Shown in pieces: positions 7,997 to 21,219 of a DNA stretch of 21,219 bases; the stretch's first letter is position 1, and the number at the start of each line of letters is the position of its first letter. This DNA comes from a virus: positions 1-21,219 of the IMG/VR virus record IMGVR_UViG_3300007520_000094; one strand, written 5' to 3'. The notes beneath the pieces were generated by a model. The model was given only the letters and a program-made list of their open reading frames with translations, was not told the DNA's origin and did no database searches. A program made the translations under genes and the position numbers.

Positions 7997-8236
7997 TCAT
8001 CTCGCACTGTCATCCACGAATACCAGGTCAAAGGGCATATCCACGATCTTGATCCGGTCAGGACGTTCATACTCCATTTGGTTGATGCGCTTCATCGGTC
8101 CACAGGTGCATAGCCTTAGCCCTTGAAATTTCCTGTACACTTCCTTTACTGTGCCATAGTAGGCCAATGCCATTTCCCGATATTCGGGAGGGCTTTTTTT
8201 ATCACCACTTACGGTGATGTTTTGGATTATCACCAT
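7997..8236 (-). CDS. Truncated duplicate of the adjacent tail gene
   Basis: This 79-residue product aligns with the last 80 or so residues of the gene just upstream (8247-8684). Shared segments are YYG-x-VK-x-VY, QMEY-RPDRIKI-DMPF and the identical ending DDSAR. The N-terminal half is missing. It thus looks like a tandem partial duplication, possibly still translated from ATG 8236 (an in-frame TTG lies at 8242). A short palindrome (8175-8189) lies where the copies diverge most. Whether it has any function is unknown. It is the last gene before the convergent terminator. Confidence 0.55.
   Translation of the reverse strand: MVIIQNITVSGDKKSPPEYREMALAYYGTVKEVYRKFQGLRLCTCGPMKRINQMEYERPDRIKIVDMPFDLVFVDDSAR
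8175..8189. repeat. Short palindrome in coding DNA
   Basis: TCCCGA and TCGGGA flank TAT inside the duplicate tail gene. It resembles the CTCCCGATAGC palindrome at 17790-17809 and encodes PEYRE there on the minus strand. Confidence 0.6.
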
Positions 8237-8246
8237 TTTCAAATTT

Positions 8247-8684
8247 TTAGCGGGCGCTATCGTCTAAGAAATTGGTTTCAAAGGGCATGTCCAAGATCTT
8301 GATCCGATCAGGACGGGCATATTCCATTTGGCTTTTTCTCTTCAGTGGCGTGGTGCCGATGCGCTGTCCCTGAAGGGCGATATAAACCGATTTGACTATA
8401 CCGTAGTATCGCAATGCTCGAGTCCGATAGTTGGGAGCGGTTTTGACGCTCGTTTCTCCCATGTAGTCAAATGCCAGCTTGACATTGATGATCACCTTGG
8501 GTTTCTGCACTCTATTGCCCAGGTCATTGGTATCAGGCAAATCAATACTGATGAGGGCACAGGGAAAAGCCACAGCTGGACGCTGATCACTATCGAGCTG
8601 TCCAAAATCCATATCTATCCACTTGATGCCAGGCACGCCGTTGATGAGGTCGGCTACTTCTAGGAATATTTGATCGATGTCCAT
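8247..8684 (-). CDS. Tail-terminator-like / minor tail protein
   Basis: This 145-residue protein follows the gpG-like gene with a 2-base gap. In Mu-like phages a protein of this size at this place helps close the tail or join head and tail. The beginning (IDQIFLEVADLINGVPGIKWIDMDFGQL) and the AVAFPCALISIDLP strand are compatible with the tail terminator fold. The match to a known family is weak, so the name comes mostly from position. A shortened copy follows it. Confidence 0.5.
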   Translation of the reverse strand: MDIDQIFLEVADLINGVPGIKWIDMDFGQLDSDQRPAVAFPCALISIDLPDTNDLGNRVQKPKVIINVKLAFDYMGETSVKTAPNYRTRALRYYGIVKSVYIALQGQRIGTTPLKRKSQMEYARPDRIKILDMPFETNFLDDSAR

Positions 8685-8686
8685 AA

Positions 8687-9229
8687 TTATTTGATTTGAA
8701 ATTTTACTTTGATACGCTCCATGATGATCACATTCAGTTCTTTGGCATAGCCCATGTATTGCCGCTGTGGCATGTTGACGGTGTAGGCTTTGAAGGTTAA
8801 TCCTTTGCCTGCCGTGGTGCCTTTTTTGTACAATCCCATGCCTCCAAAGGCCTTAGATTTTGCGCCTTTCGTATAGCGGTTTCGGATGAAGAGCTCCGAC
8901 CGTGCAGCCCGATTGATCGTCCCGCCTTCATTGTGGATTCGCGCATAGGGAGTTCTGCTATTTCCCCCATTGAAGGTCACCCGGTCAGGCTTGATCGTCC
9001 CGGATATCGAGTTGAGCAGCTTGGAAGATTTCACCATGAGCGAACCGCCCTTTGGCTTATACTTCTTGCTGTGCGGTGCCCAGGCTACGCCGTCAAATGC
9101 TTTTCGGGTGAAGCTTCCTTTGAAGTACTCCACGCCAGATTGACGGATGATGGCAGGGACATCCTTGTCCACGAAGCCATTGAGCTTTCGAAAGAATTGG
9201 TCTATCTGTGCCTGTGCCTTATTTGCCAT
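8687..9229 (-). CDS. Phage virion morphogenesis protein (gpG-like)
   Basis: This 180-residue protein matches the phage virion morphogenesis family (Mu gpG, P2 gpS), thought to act in tail completion. Seen in order: an N-terminal helix (IDQFFRKLNGFV), FKGSFTRKAFDGVAW, a basic stretch with KKYKPKGGSLMVKSSKLLNSI, YARIHNEGGTI, and the late PQRQYMGYAKEL motif. These are the signatures of the family. The start overlaps the end of the portal gene by 11 bases, so translation is coupled. Confidence 0.85.
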   Translation of the reverse strand: MANKAQAQIDQFFRKLNGFVDKDVPAIIRQSGVEYFKGSFTRKAFDGVAWAPHSKKYKPKGGSLMVKSSKLLNSISGTIKPDRVTFNGGNSRTPYARIHNEGGTINRAARSELFIRNRYTKGAKSKAFGGMGLYKKGTTAGKGLTFKAYTVNMPQRQYMGYAKELNVIIMERIKVKFQIK

Positions 9230-11753
9230 CGCTGAGAAGCATTCCTTTGCGTTTGGATTCCACCGCTTTGATTTTCCTCCAGAGCAGAATATTCAGCTCT
9301 GAATCTTCCTGCTGAGCGATCACCTGAAAGATCTCCTCTTTGTAGTAGCTGAAATAAGTCAGCTGATATCCGGCTTTCTTATCCTGCATCCATACTTCAG
9401 TAGGATTGCTGAGCGTGTCCTTCAGTGCTTCTAGCAGCTCCTCACCTTTGGTACTTCCCGTTGGGAAATTCAGAGCTCTATCCTTGTGATCGGTCAGAAT
9501 TGGTTTTCCCTTCAGCACTGGCAGTCCAGCTATGAAGTCACCAATTGCCTGCTTTCCTATTGGGATTTCTTTTGTAGCTGCTGTCAATAGGCTATCAGAT
9601 AATTGTAGTCCATAGTCGGTAGCGGTCAGCTCATTCAGGAGTTTCTTAGTTTCCGTCAGATTCTTCCCGGCTATGTACTGCTGATTGGCAGTGAAGACTT
9701 CGCCTGTCACGGATCTATTCACGCCAAAGCCCTGGCTTGCTGCTTTCGCAAATTGATCTGAAGCAAAGTAGGTGTCAGCTCTAGCTTCCATCGCTGCAAA
9801 GTCCACGTCAGCGACTTCACTTGCCATCCTCGCAACTACATAGCATCTACAGTTCCAGCCATTAGGCGGAAATAGTTTCGCCCAAGCTGGGTGATTGGCA
9901 GGCAAGATCAACCCTTCTAATTTGGCATGCTCCTCACGGACTGCATTGTCTCCGACGGTCTTATATTCCCAGTAAGGAAACGTCTCCACATCCTCCATGA
10001 GATTATGAAAGTTGGTAGCAGCTTCACCTACGAGTGTTGCCGTATCGAACTCAGTCTTAAGCCAGGCATCATTCCACACGTCACCGATTCGCTTTGCATT
10101 CATCTTGAATATGTCGTAGCTCTTCGCGTTGCGGAAAGCTTCATTCAAGGCTTGCACTTCAGCCAGTGTTTTCCCCGCGGAAAAGCGATGCAAATTCAAC
10201 TCGAAGCTCGTCAGGAGATGCGGGTCATCCATGCCGTAGGTGAAGTCAAAAACTAGGTTACCAGACCTGACAGGTTTTGAAAACCTGTCAGGTCTCTGCA
10301 TTCCAAGCGTAATATTTTTCCCGTCAAGCCCTGCATTCAGTCCTTTGATCAGCGTTCGGCTGGTGTCCCAAAACAAATCCGCATCAAATCCCGCTTTGCC
10401 TTTTGCGGCTCCTATTCGCTCAATCAGTGCCTCACTTTTTACCCCCTCCGACTCCCCCTGAAGGGTGAGAGAATCGTGCATGTGGTGAGCTCCGCAACAT
10501 GCCCCGTCCTGCGGGGCTCTCAGAAAAAAATCACCTCCCCCATCTCCCCCTCCGGCTCCCCCTGGAGGGGGAGGGACTGCCTTGGCAAGAGCTAAGGCTA
10601 GTGTCGTAGTCAGATCAGTCTGCACTTTGGCAGCTGTCACTTCCACGCCAAACTTCTCCTTGATCCATTCCGGATCAAAGTCAAAGTATCCAAGAAGTCC
10701 ATGGACAAACTTCCAAAGCTGTGCTACATCTTCCGCTTCATCAAATTCGAAGCTTAAGCCTTCAGGTAAGACCCCATGCTTTACCAGCGCTGGGATGATG
10801 GTCTCATTCCAGGCCTCCTCCAGCATAGCCATGTCAGACTGCACTAACAGCCAAAGCATTTCCATAGATACTTCGTCCTTAGCCCGTGCTCCATTCTGCG
10901 TATCCTGACCAATCATACCGCCACTTAGCAGGTTGCATATCTTCGCACCGCAATGCTTCAAAAGGCTGTTATACACGTCACCGTTCGTGCTTGCGCCTTT
11001 GGCAAAGTCAAATTCTTCCGTCTCATCAATAATAAACCAAGCAGCCGAACCCATGTCCCGCATCATCGTCTCTGCTCTTTTCAGCATGGTAGCATCTTGG
11101 GTGTTGGTCTTCAGCACACGTGGTGGAATCCCGTAGATCTCGCAGAGCTCCGACCAGCAGGATTCAGCAAATCGGGTGAACAATGCCGGAGCTACCAGCT
11201 TATTCATGAGCCCCAGAGTCTTGGAGTTGAACTCCAGTATCCAAGTGCCGAATTCGGCAAGCTCTCTATACTTGATCGATTTGGAGGTGTCTCCATATTC
11301 TGGATAGAACAATCCTGTCTGTGGTACCACGTTATAGCGTGGAATCTTTTCCGCTGTCAGCTTGGATTCAGTTCCGTTTTTCTGAAACGAAAGCTCTACC
11401 AGGTTGTAGCCGAAAAGAATCGAATCCAAGGCTGAATTCGTCAGACTCCTATACAGCGGATTTTTCTTCAGGATCTTGGTAGCTTCCTCATCGATGTCAC
11501 CGTTTGCTTTCTTCAGGGAAAAAGAGGAACTGAAGACTTGATTCTTTCTATTATTCCACTGGCTGGAAAGCAAGGTGTCCAACTCACATTCATCAAAGAC
11601 CAACTGAATTGCCCAGTTTTGGGGCTGCTCGCCCATACGTGCCATGTTCAGACCGGTGTTCCAGGACTTCATGTCCATACGGGTTCGGCTGATTGTTTTT
11701 GGTACCCAAGGCAGGTAGCTTTTCCCGACTTTGGCGTTTTGGTTTTCTGACAT
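9219..11753 (-). CDS. Portal-MuF fusion with C-terminal PBECR-like domain
   Basis: The 844-residue product joins three parts. Residues about 1-392 resemble the DUF935 (Mu gp29) portal: WAIQLVFDECELDTLLSSQW, LLVQSDMAMLEEAWNETII. Residues about 440-650 contain a MuF (gp30) head morphogenesis domain ending in the NGWNCRCYVVARM motif near 630. Residues about 730-835 (NPTEVWMQDKKAGYQLTYF and following) resemble the PBECR group of barnase/EndoU/colicin-like RNases. In Mu, portal and F are separate genes. Two repeat insertions lie in frame: a Gly/Pro-rich linker (393-437) at the portal-MuF junction and RPDRFSKPVRS (486-497). The portal ring feeds DNA into the capsid, and MuF proteins are packaged in virions. 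The toxin reading is an inference from the C-terminal pattern. Confidence 0.85.
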   Translation of the reverse strand: MSENQNAKVGKSYLPWVPKTISRTRMDMKSWNTGLNMARMGEQPQNWAIQLVFDECELDTLLSSQWNNRKNQVFSSSFSLKKANGDIDEEATKILKKNPLYRSLTNSALDSILFGYNLVELSFQKNGTESKLTAEKIPRYNVVPQTGLFYPEYGDTSKSIKYRELAEFGTWILEFNSKTLGLMNKLVAPALFTRFAESCWSELCEIYGIPPRVLKTNTQDATMLKRAETMMRDMGSAAWFIIDETEEFDFAKGASTNGDVYNSLLKHCGAKICNLLSGGMIGQDTQNGARAKDEVSMEMLWLLVQSDMAMLEEAWNETIIPALVKHGVLPEGLSFEFDEAEDVAQLWKFVHGLLGYFDFDPEWIKEKFGVEVTAAKVQTDLTTTLALALAKAVPPPPGGAGGGDGGGDFFLRAPQDGACCGAHHMHDSLTLQGESEGVKSEALIERIGAAKGKAGFDADLFWDTSRTLIKGLNAGLDGKNITLGMQRPDRFSKPVRSGNLVFDFTYGMDDPHLLTSFELNLHRFSAGKTLAEVQALNEAFRNAKSYDIFKMNAKRIGDVWNDAWLKTEFDTATLVGEAATNFHNLMEDVETFPYWEYKTVGDNAVREEHAKLEGLILPANHPAWAKLFPPNGWNCRCYVVARMASEVADVDFAAMEARADTYFASDQFAKAASQGFGVNRSVTGEVFTANQQYIAGKNLTETKKLLNELTATDYGLQLSDSLLTAATKEIPIGKQAIGDFIAGLPVLKGKPILTDHKDRALNFPTGSTKGEELLEALKDTLSNPTEVWMQDKKAGYQLTYFSYYKEEIFQVIAQQEDSELNILLWRKIKAVESKRKGMLLSDGK
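10263..10295. repeat. 33-bp palindrome translated inside the portal gene
   Basis: AGACCTGACAGGTTTT (10263-10278) pairs exactly with 10280-10295 around a single base. The total length, 33, is a multiple of three and encodes RPDRFSKPVRS on the minus strand. It belongs to the same family as the tandem repeat at 7133-7204. Confidence 0.95.
10442..10576. repeat. GC-rich repeat cluster inside the portal gene
   Basis: About 135 bases contain CTCCCCCT/AGGGGGAG arms (10556-10573), a GCCCCG/CGGGGC hairpin (10501-10517) and several CCCCCT-rich stretches of the type often found between Bacteroidota genes. It is translated as a Gly/Pro/Cys/His linker of about 45 residues between portal and MuF domains. 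Boundaries are approximate. Confidence 0.75.
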
Positions 11754-18592: not shown

Positions 18593-19114
18593 ATGTCACT
18601 ATCGAAATCAGAGTTGCTGGACAAAGCCAAGGAGGTATTTGGGATATATCCAAGTGCGAAGGAGTTTCACTTCAGTGCTGATGGACAGGCGTTCACGGAG
18701 CAATCCCACGCCGTCAATCACGCAAAGTCACTCGAGGTAAAAGACACGGTGCTCATCACCAAGTCTATGGCGGCAGCCGGAACTATTGACGTACCAAACG
18801 ATCCAGCCCCTGCGGTTGTGGATCCAAACGGTGCAAAGAATGAGTTCCAAAAGCTGGGCGTGAAGTCTGAAAAGGGCTTAAGTGAAGGCGGGGCTGATCC
18901 TGTCAAGGAATCTGAAGCACTTGAAATGCAGAGCCTATTGGCGAAGCATGAAGAACTATCAGGTAAGAAAGCAGCTGGGAATATCAAGCTGGAGACGCTG
19001 AAGGCAAAAGTACAGGAGTTGGAAGCTGAAGCAGCAAAAGAAGAAGTGTCGAAAGCGGCTACCAAAGCGGCTCAGGACATTCAGAAGGATGTAAACGAAA
19101 CCGACCAGAAATAA
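18593..19114 (+). CDS. Hypothetical protein, Ala/Lys/Glu-rich
   Basis: This 173-residue protein has a short ordered N-terminal part (ELLDKAKEVFGIYPSAKEF, then AVNHAKSLEVKD). A Pro/Asp/Gly linker is followed by a long coiled-coil-like C-terminal half with alternating Ala, Lys and Glu. No family is recognised. It lies just before the tail tube gene, with its TAA overlapping the next ATG, so it may take part in virion or tail assembly. Confidence 0.6.
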   Translation: MSLSKSELLDKAKEVFGIYPSAKEFHFSADGQAFTEQSHAVNHAKSLEVKDTVLITKSMAAAGTIDVPNDPAPAVVDPNGAKNEFQKLGVKSEKGLSEGGADPVKESEALEMQSLLAKHEELSGKKAAGNIKLETLKAKVQELEAEAAKEEVSKAATKAAQDIQKDVNETDQK

Positions 19115-19620
19115 TGGGAACACTAACCTACGGGGCAAAGAAAATCGAAATGGGTGACTGGGATCCAGTCCTAAAGAGTACATCGAACTGGGTGGAACTC
19201 CCTGTCTATAACGAAACCTTTGTGCTCACTGAGGCTGAGCCTTCAGTGAATGAGCACAAGCAGCAAGGGAAGTCTAATCCTAGACTACGAAGAGTAACGC
19301 CTGCATCTATGGCGATAAGTTATCAGCTGATGGACACAGATCCACAGGCATTGATGAAAGCTTTTGGAGGTACCATCGCTGTAGTGAATACTGCGGATGT
19401 GTGGAGCGCCCCAAAGAATCGAGGTGAAGTGATCAAGTCGCTAAAAATCACGGCTGAAGATGATTCTATCATTACAGTTCCAGCATTCTCGCATTATGCC
19501 CGACTGAATCTAACCATCACAGATGCCAACATCAACTTGATTGATGTTTCTGGTGTGGTATCAGATACGGGTGCAGATGCTACACCTGACTTCACCTGGT
19601 CAGAGAAGCAAACGCCATAA
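19114..19620 (+). CDS. Tail tube protein (putative)
   Basis: This 168-residue protein consists mainly of beta strands (GTLTYGAKKIEMGDWDPV, KSLKITAEDDSIITVPAF) and ends with a Ser/Asp/Glu-rich part. This is the size and pattern of tail tube proteins of long-tailed phages. Position supports the call: it is directly before the chaperone and tape measure genes, the usual order. A direct family signature is not certain. Confidence 0.65.
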   Translation: MGTLTYGAKKIEMGDWDPVLKSTSNWVELPVYNETFVLTEAEPSVNEHKQQGKSNPRLRRVTPASMAISYQLMDTDPQALMKAFGGTIAVVNTADVWSAPKNRGEVIKSLKITAEDDSIITVPAFSHYARLNLTITDANINLIDVSGVVSDTGADATPDFTWSEKQTP

Positions 19621-19624
19621 AGCG

Positions 19625-20101
19625 ATGCAAACTGAGCTGCACGCGGCTTACAGTATACTAGAGAGGGGCGTCAGGTCGAAGGTCAGAGCCCCTCTTTTTT
19701 TACGGCTGTTCCGCATCAAAACTATCTCGCTCACTATCAGGATGCTCTATGCGGGCACGCTAATACGAGCCTCTCGGCGATACCTGGCAACAGGGATCAA
19801 AGATGAACAGCTGAAGGAAATGACGCTGGAAGAATCCCTCGAAGTGCAAGCGAAACATGGCAATGCAATCGCCCGATGTGTGGCCACTGCGGTGATCAAC
19901 AGCCGATACCTGGACTGGATACTTGGAAGATGGCTAGGGGGCTATCTATTGGATAATCTCCCTTGGCGTGAGATACGAGCTCTACTCGAATATACCCTGG
20001 TGTATGGAGGGATCTCGGATTTTATGCCTACTACCAGATTGGTGCGAGCGGTAAAAATAACCGATCCTCAAAATCAGGGTCAAAAGAAAAAAGGGAGTTA
20101 A
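19625..20101 (+). CDS. Tail assembly chaperone, frame 0 product
   Basis: This is a 158-residue helical protein ending QGQKKKGS. It lies between tail tube and tape measure genes, where long-tailed phages carry the G/GT chaperones. The region LTIRMLYAGTLIRASR, then EVQAKHGNAIARCVATAVINS, is typical of such helical chaperones. The start is uncertain: ATG 19625 is the nearest after the previous stop, and ATG 19742 is another choice. A terminator-like hairpin (19662-19701) overlaps the 5' part. The A-rich end near 20087-20095 is the likely site of frameshifting into the next frame. Confidence 0.6.
   Translation: MQTELHAAYSILERGVRSKVRAPLFLRLFRIKTISLTIRMLYAGTLIRASRRYLATGIKDEQLKEMTLEESLEVQAKHGNAIARCVATAVINSRYLDWILGRWLGGYLLDNLPWREIRALLEYTLVYGGISDFMPTTRLVRAVKITDPQNQGQKKKGS
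19662..19701 (+). terminator. Terminator-like hairpin in the chaperone 5' end
   Basis: AGAGGGGC (19662-19669) pairs exactly with GCCCCTCT (19688-19695) across an 18-base loop, followed by a run of seven T (19695-19701). It looks like an intrinsic terminator located shortly after the tail tube stop, yet it lies inside the chaperone frame if that starts at 19625. It could reduce expression of chaperone and tape measure relative to tube protein. Confidence 0.6.
20087..20095 (+). other. Candidate frameshift site (A6G3)
   Basis: AAAAAAGGG is the last A-run before the frame-0 stop at 20099-20101. Frame-0 codons are AAA AAA GGG. Moving back one base opens the downstream frame. The perfect X-XXY-YYZ register (A AAA AAG) is not met, so either a single-tRNA slip or polymerase slippage on the A-run may apply. 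Confidence 0.45.
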
Positions 20102-20322
20102 AGGCCTCTGGCCTTCATAGCCCGGCTGGAATCATCTTCCATATCTGTGAAAAAACAGGCTGGAGCTGGAAATACGTCCTCTGGGGCATTCCCTGGAATC
20201 TCATCCTCTGGGGCATGGCAGATGCACCGGCAATGGAAAGAGAAGATCCCGAAAAGCCTAAAGAAGGAGACCCTGCTGAGGGAAGAAAAAAGTATCAATC
20301 GAGAAAAATAAAAGATGGATAA
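20092..20322 (+). CDS. Tail chaperone frameshift extension (-1 frame)
   Basis: This -1 frame is open from 19972 to the stop at 20320-20322. It encodes IFHICEKTGWSWKYVLWGIP and then WNLILWGMADAP and a charged end (EREDPEKPKEGDPAEGRKK). It has no ATG before the conserved-looking Trp-rich segment; the first is at 20215. It overlaps the tape measure start by 8 bases. In long-tailed phages such a start-less frame between chaperone and tape measure is made as a fusion by frameshift, like lambda G/GT. Translation through 20092 gives a joined protein of about 232 residues. The Trp-rich motif is a pattern I associate with this chaperone extension. Confidence 0.65.
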   Translation, partial: RELKASGLHSPAGIIFHICEKTGWSWKYVLWGIPWNLILWGMADAPAMEREDPEKPKEGDPAEGRKKYQSRKIKDG

Positions 20323-21219
20323 GCTAGGCCCTGTAGAAATCGATTTCATTTTCAACAATGCGGAATTCAAAGCTGCTTCCGAGCAGTTGAAGTCCGAGAT
20401 TCAAGGCATAGTCACCGTGGCTAAGGATTCGGCTGTGGAAGCTTCAGCCGCTACGACTGCTGTGCTGTCGGATTCGGCTAAGGAAATCGCAGAATATCAG
20501 CGTCAAATCGCTGAATCAGGAAAAATGAGCGGTCCACTGGTGGAGTCGAAAGGAATTGAAGAGGCCAAACGTCAGCTTGAACTTTTAGTGGCTGAGAAAG
20601 TCAGACTTCAGGAATTCTACGACACGGGAAAAATGGGCGCTGAATCATACCAGTTAGCTGTGGACAAGTTGGCAGCTTCGGAGCGTCAGCTTACGGCCGC
20701 TGTGGCAGGTACCGCTCCCAATCAGCAAGGTGCAGAGGTTAAGATCCTCGATGAGAAACAGCGTGCTCTGGAAGCGGTGTCAGACGAATATCGTGGAGTA
20801 CTCGCTGCGGGAATGGCAGCCTATAATGAACTAACTCCTGCTACCCGTACGCTCATCGTGCAGTTGAATGATATGGATGGGGAAATGCGCCAGGTGAATC
20901 TGGCGCAGAATGACCTGAACAAACGATTCGACGCCGGCACGGTCGACGCCACTCAATATACCCAAGCCCTCGCTGCACTGAGTGTACGTGAAGCAGAACT
21001 ACGAAAGAACATTCAGGGATCTACGAATGAGCTCAAAGGACAGAGCATGGCTATCGGAGCGCAAAAACCGCAATGGAATGGCCTAGGGAATTCGATCAAC
21101 CAAGTTACCAGGGAACTTCCTGCCTTCACCTATTCCGCTCAGACTGGCTTCATGGCTATCTCGAATAACATCCCAATTCTAGTAGATGAAATCAATCGAC
21201 TCAAAGTAACCAATGCAGC
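20315..21219 (+). CDS. Tail tape measure protein, partial
   Basis: About 301 codons are open to the window end, starting MDKLGPVEIDFIFNNAEFKA. The visible part is helical with repeated Ala/Gln/Glu-rich stretches (KEIAEYQRQIAESGK; AEVKILDEKQRALEAVSDEY), as in the coiled N-terminal part of tape measure proteins. Near the end, MAISNNIPILVDEINRLK starts a region typical of the hydrophobic segment of Bacteroidota tape measures. It sets tail length and moves into the cell envelope at DNA entry. The start overlaps the frameshift extension by 8 bases. Confidence 0.85.
   Translation, partial: MDKLGPVEIDFIFNNAEFKAASEQLKSEIQGIVTVAKDSAVEASAATTAVLSDSAKEIAEYQRQIAESGKMSGPLVESKGIEEAKRQLELLVAEKVRLQEFYDTGKMGAESYQLAVDKLAASERQLTAAVAGTAPNQQGAEVKILDEKQRALEAVSDEYRGVLAAGMAAYNELTPATRTLIVQLNDMDGEMRQVNLAQNDLNKRFDAGTVDATQYTQALAALSVREAELRKNIQGSTNELKGQSMAIGAQKPQWNGLGNSINQVTRELPAFTYSAQTGFMAISNNIPILVDEINRLKVTNA

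Follow-up and report, generated by a model that had tools for sequence, protein, structure and literature searches.

A probable programmed -1 frameshift at G GAT TTT in a phage tail assembly chaperone gene with relatives in phages of Bacteroidota

The window, which is the whole stretch of DNA that we analyzed, is a virus fragment from IMG/VR with 21,219 bases. The host probably belongs to the Cyclobacteriaceae, because the terminase is 82–93% identical to those in prophages of Belliella and Cecembia (and in two other virus contigs). Near the end of the window lies a short gene with an overlapping second reading frame, flanked by a probable major tail protein and a tape measure gene, which is the position of G/GT in phage lambda. 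The features are as follows, with RNA and slip-site features as predicted from the sequence:

19114 to 19620, + strand: upstream neighbor, probable major tail protein (PHROG 6767, E = 1.3e-17, unknown function)
19625 to 20101, + strand: zero-frame gene for a G-like putative tail assembly chaperone, 158 aa (ATG at 19625, TAA at 20099–20101)
20017 to 20023, + strand: slip site G GAT TTT (zero-frame codons GAT and TTT), in the zero-frame register and inside the overlap
20023 to 20322, + strand: T-like -1 extension, 99 aa past the slip, with a linker and a small helical Trp-rich domain
20034 to 20078, + strand: hairpin 1, stimulator-like (CCAGATT at 20034–20040 with AATCAGG at 20072–20078 and one A.A mismatch; inner stem CGGT/ACCG)
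about 20093 to 20123, + strand: RNA element 2 (outer stem GGG at 20093–20095 with CCC at 20121–20123), which encloses the zero-frame stop
20315 to 21219, continuing past the end of the window, + strand: downstream neighbor, start of the tape measure gene (by position; PHROG 14476)

The counterpart of the upstream gene is annotated as "major tail" in Porphyromonas phage 011a (L004; loci in our set have L numbers) and as a tail protein in BKO1-TP4 (L003). The downstream gene matches PHROG 14476, a virion structural protein, with E = 1.8e-21, and a tape measure is annotated at the corresponding place in L002–L006 and L008. Related phages of Elizabethkingia, Bacteroides, Porphyromonas, and Riemerella have the same gene layout; their records either show the -1 part as a short gene of its own or leave it unannotated. 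Elsewhere in the window, on the minus strand, a single frame of 844 aa (9219–11753) combines a Mu-type portal, a Mu gpF-like domain, and a PBECR2 nuclease-like domain. Also on the minus strand, two neighboring frames (7997–8242 and 8247–8684) share the C-terminal motif MEYxRPDRIKIxDMPFxxxFxDDSAR and are a probable partial tandem duplication.

A preliminary description of this DNA had proposed a probable programmed -1 frameshift in the tail assembly chaperone, by comparison with lambda G/GT, and our analysis supports this for the gene flanked by the major tail protein and tape measure genes. The coordinates that it gave for the two frames are also correct: frame 0 ends with TAA at 20099–20101, and the open stretch of the -1 frame spans 19972 to 20322 (116 codons plus the stop) and encodes ...TGWSWKYVLWGIPWNLILWGMADAP.... 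As it had noted, no ATG precedes the Trp-rich segment; in fact the -1 frame lacks ATG, GTG, and TTG from 19972 to about 20214, and its first ATG, at 20215, is within the Trp-rich segment. The zero-frame product matches PHROG 14983 (E = 1.7e-16) and the -1 product matches PHROG 11996 (E = 8.2e-17), both of unknown function. Searches of Rfam, Pfam, and PDB sequences gave nothing useful.

A search of virus contigs with the window's protein alone was unsuccessful, as the relatives are too distant. From scans of virus contigs and bacterial genomes, we obtained 191 homologous loci with both parts present, and the second part is in the -1 frame relative to the first in 188 of them. The three exceptions are L103 and L126, which on inspection carry the same site, and L048, in which the two parts are fused in a single ORF. 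In L103, the slip site (G GCT TTT) is intact, but the zero-frame gene looks broken at a point upstream of it, possibly because of a sequencing error or because the prophage has decayed.

Patterns of substitution in 27 independent pairs of loci establish that both frames are coding. Past the zero-frame stop, pN/pS is 0.11 in the -1 frame, as compared to 2.2 and 2.4 for the remaining frames, so by this measure purifying selection on the -1 frame is strong there. Within the overlap, synonymous variation in frame 0 falls from 0.48 to 0.12. We also considered read-through of the zero-frame stop and rejected it, because there is no coding selection in frame 0 past the stop.

The predicted structures of the two parts differ in quality. 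The AlphaFold model of the zero-frame protein is confident (pLDDT 85), except for the tail past about residue 142, which has low confidence; the slip residue, F133, lies within the last helix. The best match for this model in BFVD is a "Pre-tape measure frameshift protein G" from Xylella phage Sano (V5Q9H5; probability 1.00, E = 2.6e-3), yet the TM-score is just 0.42–0.44 and the two proteins are 17% identical. A fold search against PDB found no significant match to a solved chaperone (3klu, or YqbN, had E = 7). The model of the -1 part has a low-confidence linker and a small three-helix core, with a pLDDT of 64 for the T domain, and is weak outside the core.

To locate the shift, we aligned the zero-frame proteins alone, so the choice of site was independent of any slip motif. 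One phenylalanine is invariant in 149 of 150 proteins. The wobble base just before its codon is T in 149/149 cases, as compared to 27% at comparable wobble positions, and the codon that holds this T encodes ten different residues. (On inspection, the remaining locus, L182, has C CCT TTT.) In every homolog that we examined, the codon after NNT in the zero frame is TTY, and conservation of the -1 peptide (FYxYYQI) begins exactly at this N NNT TTY. Although some of the loci were fetched with a pattern that included FYxYYQI, which favors the motif, the set for which all patterns lay downstream gives the same result.

Two other observations bear on the position of the shift. First, the mean entropies of zero-frame codon positions 1, 2, and 3 are 1.50, 1.28, and 1.80 from -21 to -4, but 0.33, 1.04, and 0.38 from +8 to +19; that is, the freedom to vary at third positions passes from the zero phase to the -1 phase once the slip codon is reached, as judged from the alignment. 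Second, eight loci have a -1 stop codon no more than 6 nt upstream of the slip codon, so the shift is bounded on its upstream side. Together with the onset of peptide conservation, these comparisons show where the shift lies.

Position -4 is constrained as well. Its base is identical to the base at -3 in 79 of 101 non-redundant loci, versus 29 expected. Before GAT, the base at -4 is G in 40/42 cases, although the codon with this wobble base encodes nine different residues. Shared descent is left in these counts. Because position -4 is thus under selection too, the P-site tRNA probably takes part in the slip. In loci with G TCT TTT, the base at -4 is G in 10/10 cases, though re-pairing in the P site is not obvious for this class.

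The commonest heptamer is GGATTTT, which is found in 39 of the 101 loci. It departs from the canonical X XXY YYZ pattern, as the window has GGA at the first three positions; a perfect XXX is found in 30/101 relatives. The site does fit the Z_ZZN tetramer pattern, with T TTT in the window and T TTY in 149/149 homologs. Z_ZZN frameshifts are known from elements of the IS1 and IS3 families, and U_UU.U and U_UU.C are among the more shift-prone tetramers in E. coli if a stimulator is present downstream (PMC4066793). Our site resembles the Z_ZZN sites of IS1 and IS3 in this respect, but differs in that selection acts on position -4 as well, with probable involvement of the P-site tRNA.

In a few relatives, the two parts are naturally encoded in one reading frame and no slip site is needed (L048/L210 and L211). 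In L211, residues 34–167 correspond to frame 0 of a relative, L212, whereas residues 168–261 correspond to the -1 frame of L212. This split places the junction at most a few residues from where the slip is predicted, without the zero-frame tail that a shift near the gene's end would have added; the junctions in L048/L210 are similarly close. L048 also has a separate G-like gene upstream.

Hairpin 1 begins 10 nt past the slip codon TTT, which is a longer spacer than the 5–8 nt that is usually quoted (PMC4066793). Windows between +10 and +60 fold more stably than shuffled sequences (mean z = -1.52), and the arms of the hairpin pair better with their own partners than with the partners from other loci (swap test, p = 2e-14). 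Covariation is also strong, with 59 double-change cells versus 19 in shuffles (0/500 shuffles reached this), and it collapses if the pairs are slid by one base. Shared ancestry is not taken out by the shuffles; it is retained in the slid controls. Sequence comparisons thereby show that this structure is conserved across the homologs. In the window, the hairpin is weaker than in some relatives: the closed stem has an energy of -8.2 kcal/mol, as compared to -15 to -16 in L022 and L011, and it is not the minimum-energy fold of a longer stretch. A pseudoknot or other contact between the loop and neighboring segments was rejected by swap tests (p = 0.12–0.95). A Shine-Dalgarno-like GGAGGG upstream of the site in the window was also rejected, as it is absent from the close relatives L022, L010, and L030.

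We propose, with a probability of roughly 0.93, that the tail assembly chaperone pair is produced by a -1 slip of the ribosome at G GAT TTT (20017–20023), with hairpin 1 pausing the ribosome. Most ribosomes would continue in frame 0 to the TAA at 20099 and yield the 158-aa G-like protein. While paused by the hairpin 10 nt downstream of the slip codon, a minority of ribosomes would move back by one base: tRNA-Phe would re-pair from TTT to the TTT one base back, aided by re-pairing of the preceding tRNA (Asp) at the first position at least. The slipped ribosomes would go on in the -1 frame and add the linker and the Trp-rich helical T domain. The predicted fusion product has 133 + 99 = 232 aa; the predicted junction runs from ...GGISDF to YAYYQI..., and the predicted tryptic peptide across it is ALLEYTLVYGGISDFYAYYQIGASGK. 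We infer the slippage on the ribosome, its frequency, and the stimulation by hairpin 1 from these conserved features. By analogy with lambda, the products would act as chaperones, with the T domain recruiting the major tail protein and the G part binding the tape measure.

A second conserved structure, element 2, lies around the zero-frame stop. Its inner hairpin (AAGGCC at 20101–20106 with GGCCTT at 20110–20115) covaries, its internal loop (AGTTA/CATAG) is invariant, and its outer stem covaries in two groups of homologs (in one test, 57 double-change cells versus 20), which together establish that this RNA structure is conserved too. Within the element, a serine codon is AGC in 89/89 loci, as compared to 26% of serine codons elsewhere in the gene, and a histidine codon is CAT in 75/75. 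The element is found in most loci whose stop is 75–87 nt past the site and is nearly absent if the stop is 90 nt or more away. A search with Rfam covariance models found no match at E values up to 5, either for element 2 or to a known frameshift element. We also considered if element 2 might be a general RNA motif, but rejected this: 54 of 120 loci that match its pattern are away from the chaperone gene, but these lack the same fold.

The strong covariation of the outer stem, the invariant loop and codons, and the presence of element 2 in most loci with a nearby stop raise the question of whether element 2, and not hairpin 1, is the main regulator. It would then set the ratio of the products or bind a protein, and frameshifting would otherwise occur as we propose. 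We consider this unlikely. Element 2 begins about 65 nt or more past the slip codon, which is too far for a usual stimulator; it is missing from nearly all of the loci with more distant stops; we saw no covariation or contact between it and the loop of hairpin 1; and it could have another purpose. A related and tentative idea, which we view as possible but doubtful, is that element 2 represents a new class of regulatory RNA that acts with the slip site to set the chaperone ratio, for instance via queuing of ribosomes, a bound protein, or control of termination.

Slippage at G GAT TTT also accounts better for the data than a slip near the end of the gene. The preliminary description had placed the slip at AAAAAAGGG (20087–20095) and suggested an odd register and an unusual mechanism. 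AAA AAA GGG is indeed in the zero-frame register, as it had stated, and is within the overlap just before the stop; also, with a G after six As, tRNA-Lys could go back one base, for example by single P-site slippage on AAA. But the relatives have AAG GGG, AAG ACG, GTA GAG, or GAT GGG at this place, with no conserved slippery motif, and conservation of the -1 peptide is already present at G GAT TTT, 70 nt upstream. The natural fusions join upstream of the A run. The A/G run is instead the 5' side of the covarying stem of element 2. A slip at this run is very improbable, and an odd register is not supported, as G GAT TTT lies in register.

It is similarly improbable that the -1 frame is a separate gene with its own start codon, as several GenBank records have it. 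L003–L006 and L008 are annotated with a short CDS that has an internal start, and 26 of the 101 loci do contain a -1 frame start codon past the site. However, the -1 peptide and the codon phase are conserved from the slip site onward, before any of the annotated starts is reached. We also looked in the homologs for a separate and well-placed start, which the preliminary description had named as refuting its proposal, and in 44/101 non-redundant loci, along with the window, the stretch from the upstream -1 stop to the T domain holds no ATG, GTG, or TTG. Finally, a run of Ts could in principle cause slippage by RNA polymerase instead of by the ribosome, but there is almost no chance of this, as the window and most homologs have four Ts only, far below the runs at which polymerase slips, and slippage on the ribosome agrees with the codon-level signal at base -4 and with the presence of a hairpin downstream.

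The proposed ribosomal frameshifting at G GAT TTT is of a known kind. As with the G/GT tail assembly chaperone of lambda (Xu, Hendrix and Duda, cited in PMC5009743 and PMC3711429), the gene sits between those for the major tail protein and tape measure, the shift is in the -1 direction, and there would be a zero-frame product plus a version with a C-terminal extension. This case differs from lambda in that the gene has no detectable Pfam family, the slip motif is X XNT TTT, the overlap from the slip to the zero-frame stop is about 25 codons, and there are two conserved RNA structures. The identical heptamer, in the same register, is found in pea enation mosaic virus, other umbraviruses, and dianthoviruses, where again only the A-site tRNA can re-pair fully and there is RNA structure downstream (PMC4737148, PMC5009743). 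In pea enation mosaic virus, GGAUUUU is a tested shift site, and frameshifting is reduced to 36–40% if P-site re-pairing is blocked (PMC4737148). These are eukaryotic RNA viruses, though, and their sites have a 5-nt spacer, a stop right after the site, a long-distance RNA contact, and an unrelated gene. Judging by the motif's name (two, one, four), GGATTTT also appears to fit the "twoonefour" class of PRFect, which is a computed class that came from inspection of annotated SEA-PHAGES frameshifts (PMC10885494). We did not find the cassette as a whole (the slip motif, the length of the overlap, and the two RNA elements) described in the literature that we searched, which consisted mainly of open-access journal papers.

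If this interpretation is correct, it would give a function to two PHROG families of unknown function (14983 and 11996) and set right an annotation error that recurs among phages of Bacteroides, Porphyromonas, Riemerella, and Elizabethkingia. The conserved RNA that surrounds the zero-frame stop also raises a direct and testable question. In addition, the interpretation would locate a well-marked natural frameshift cassette for the Bacteroidota, with both RNA structures conserved across phages of this phylum.
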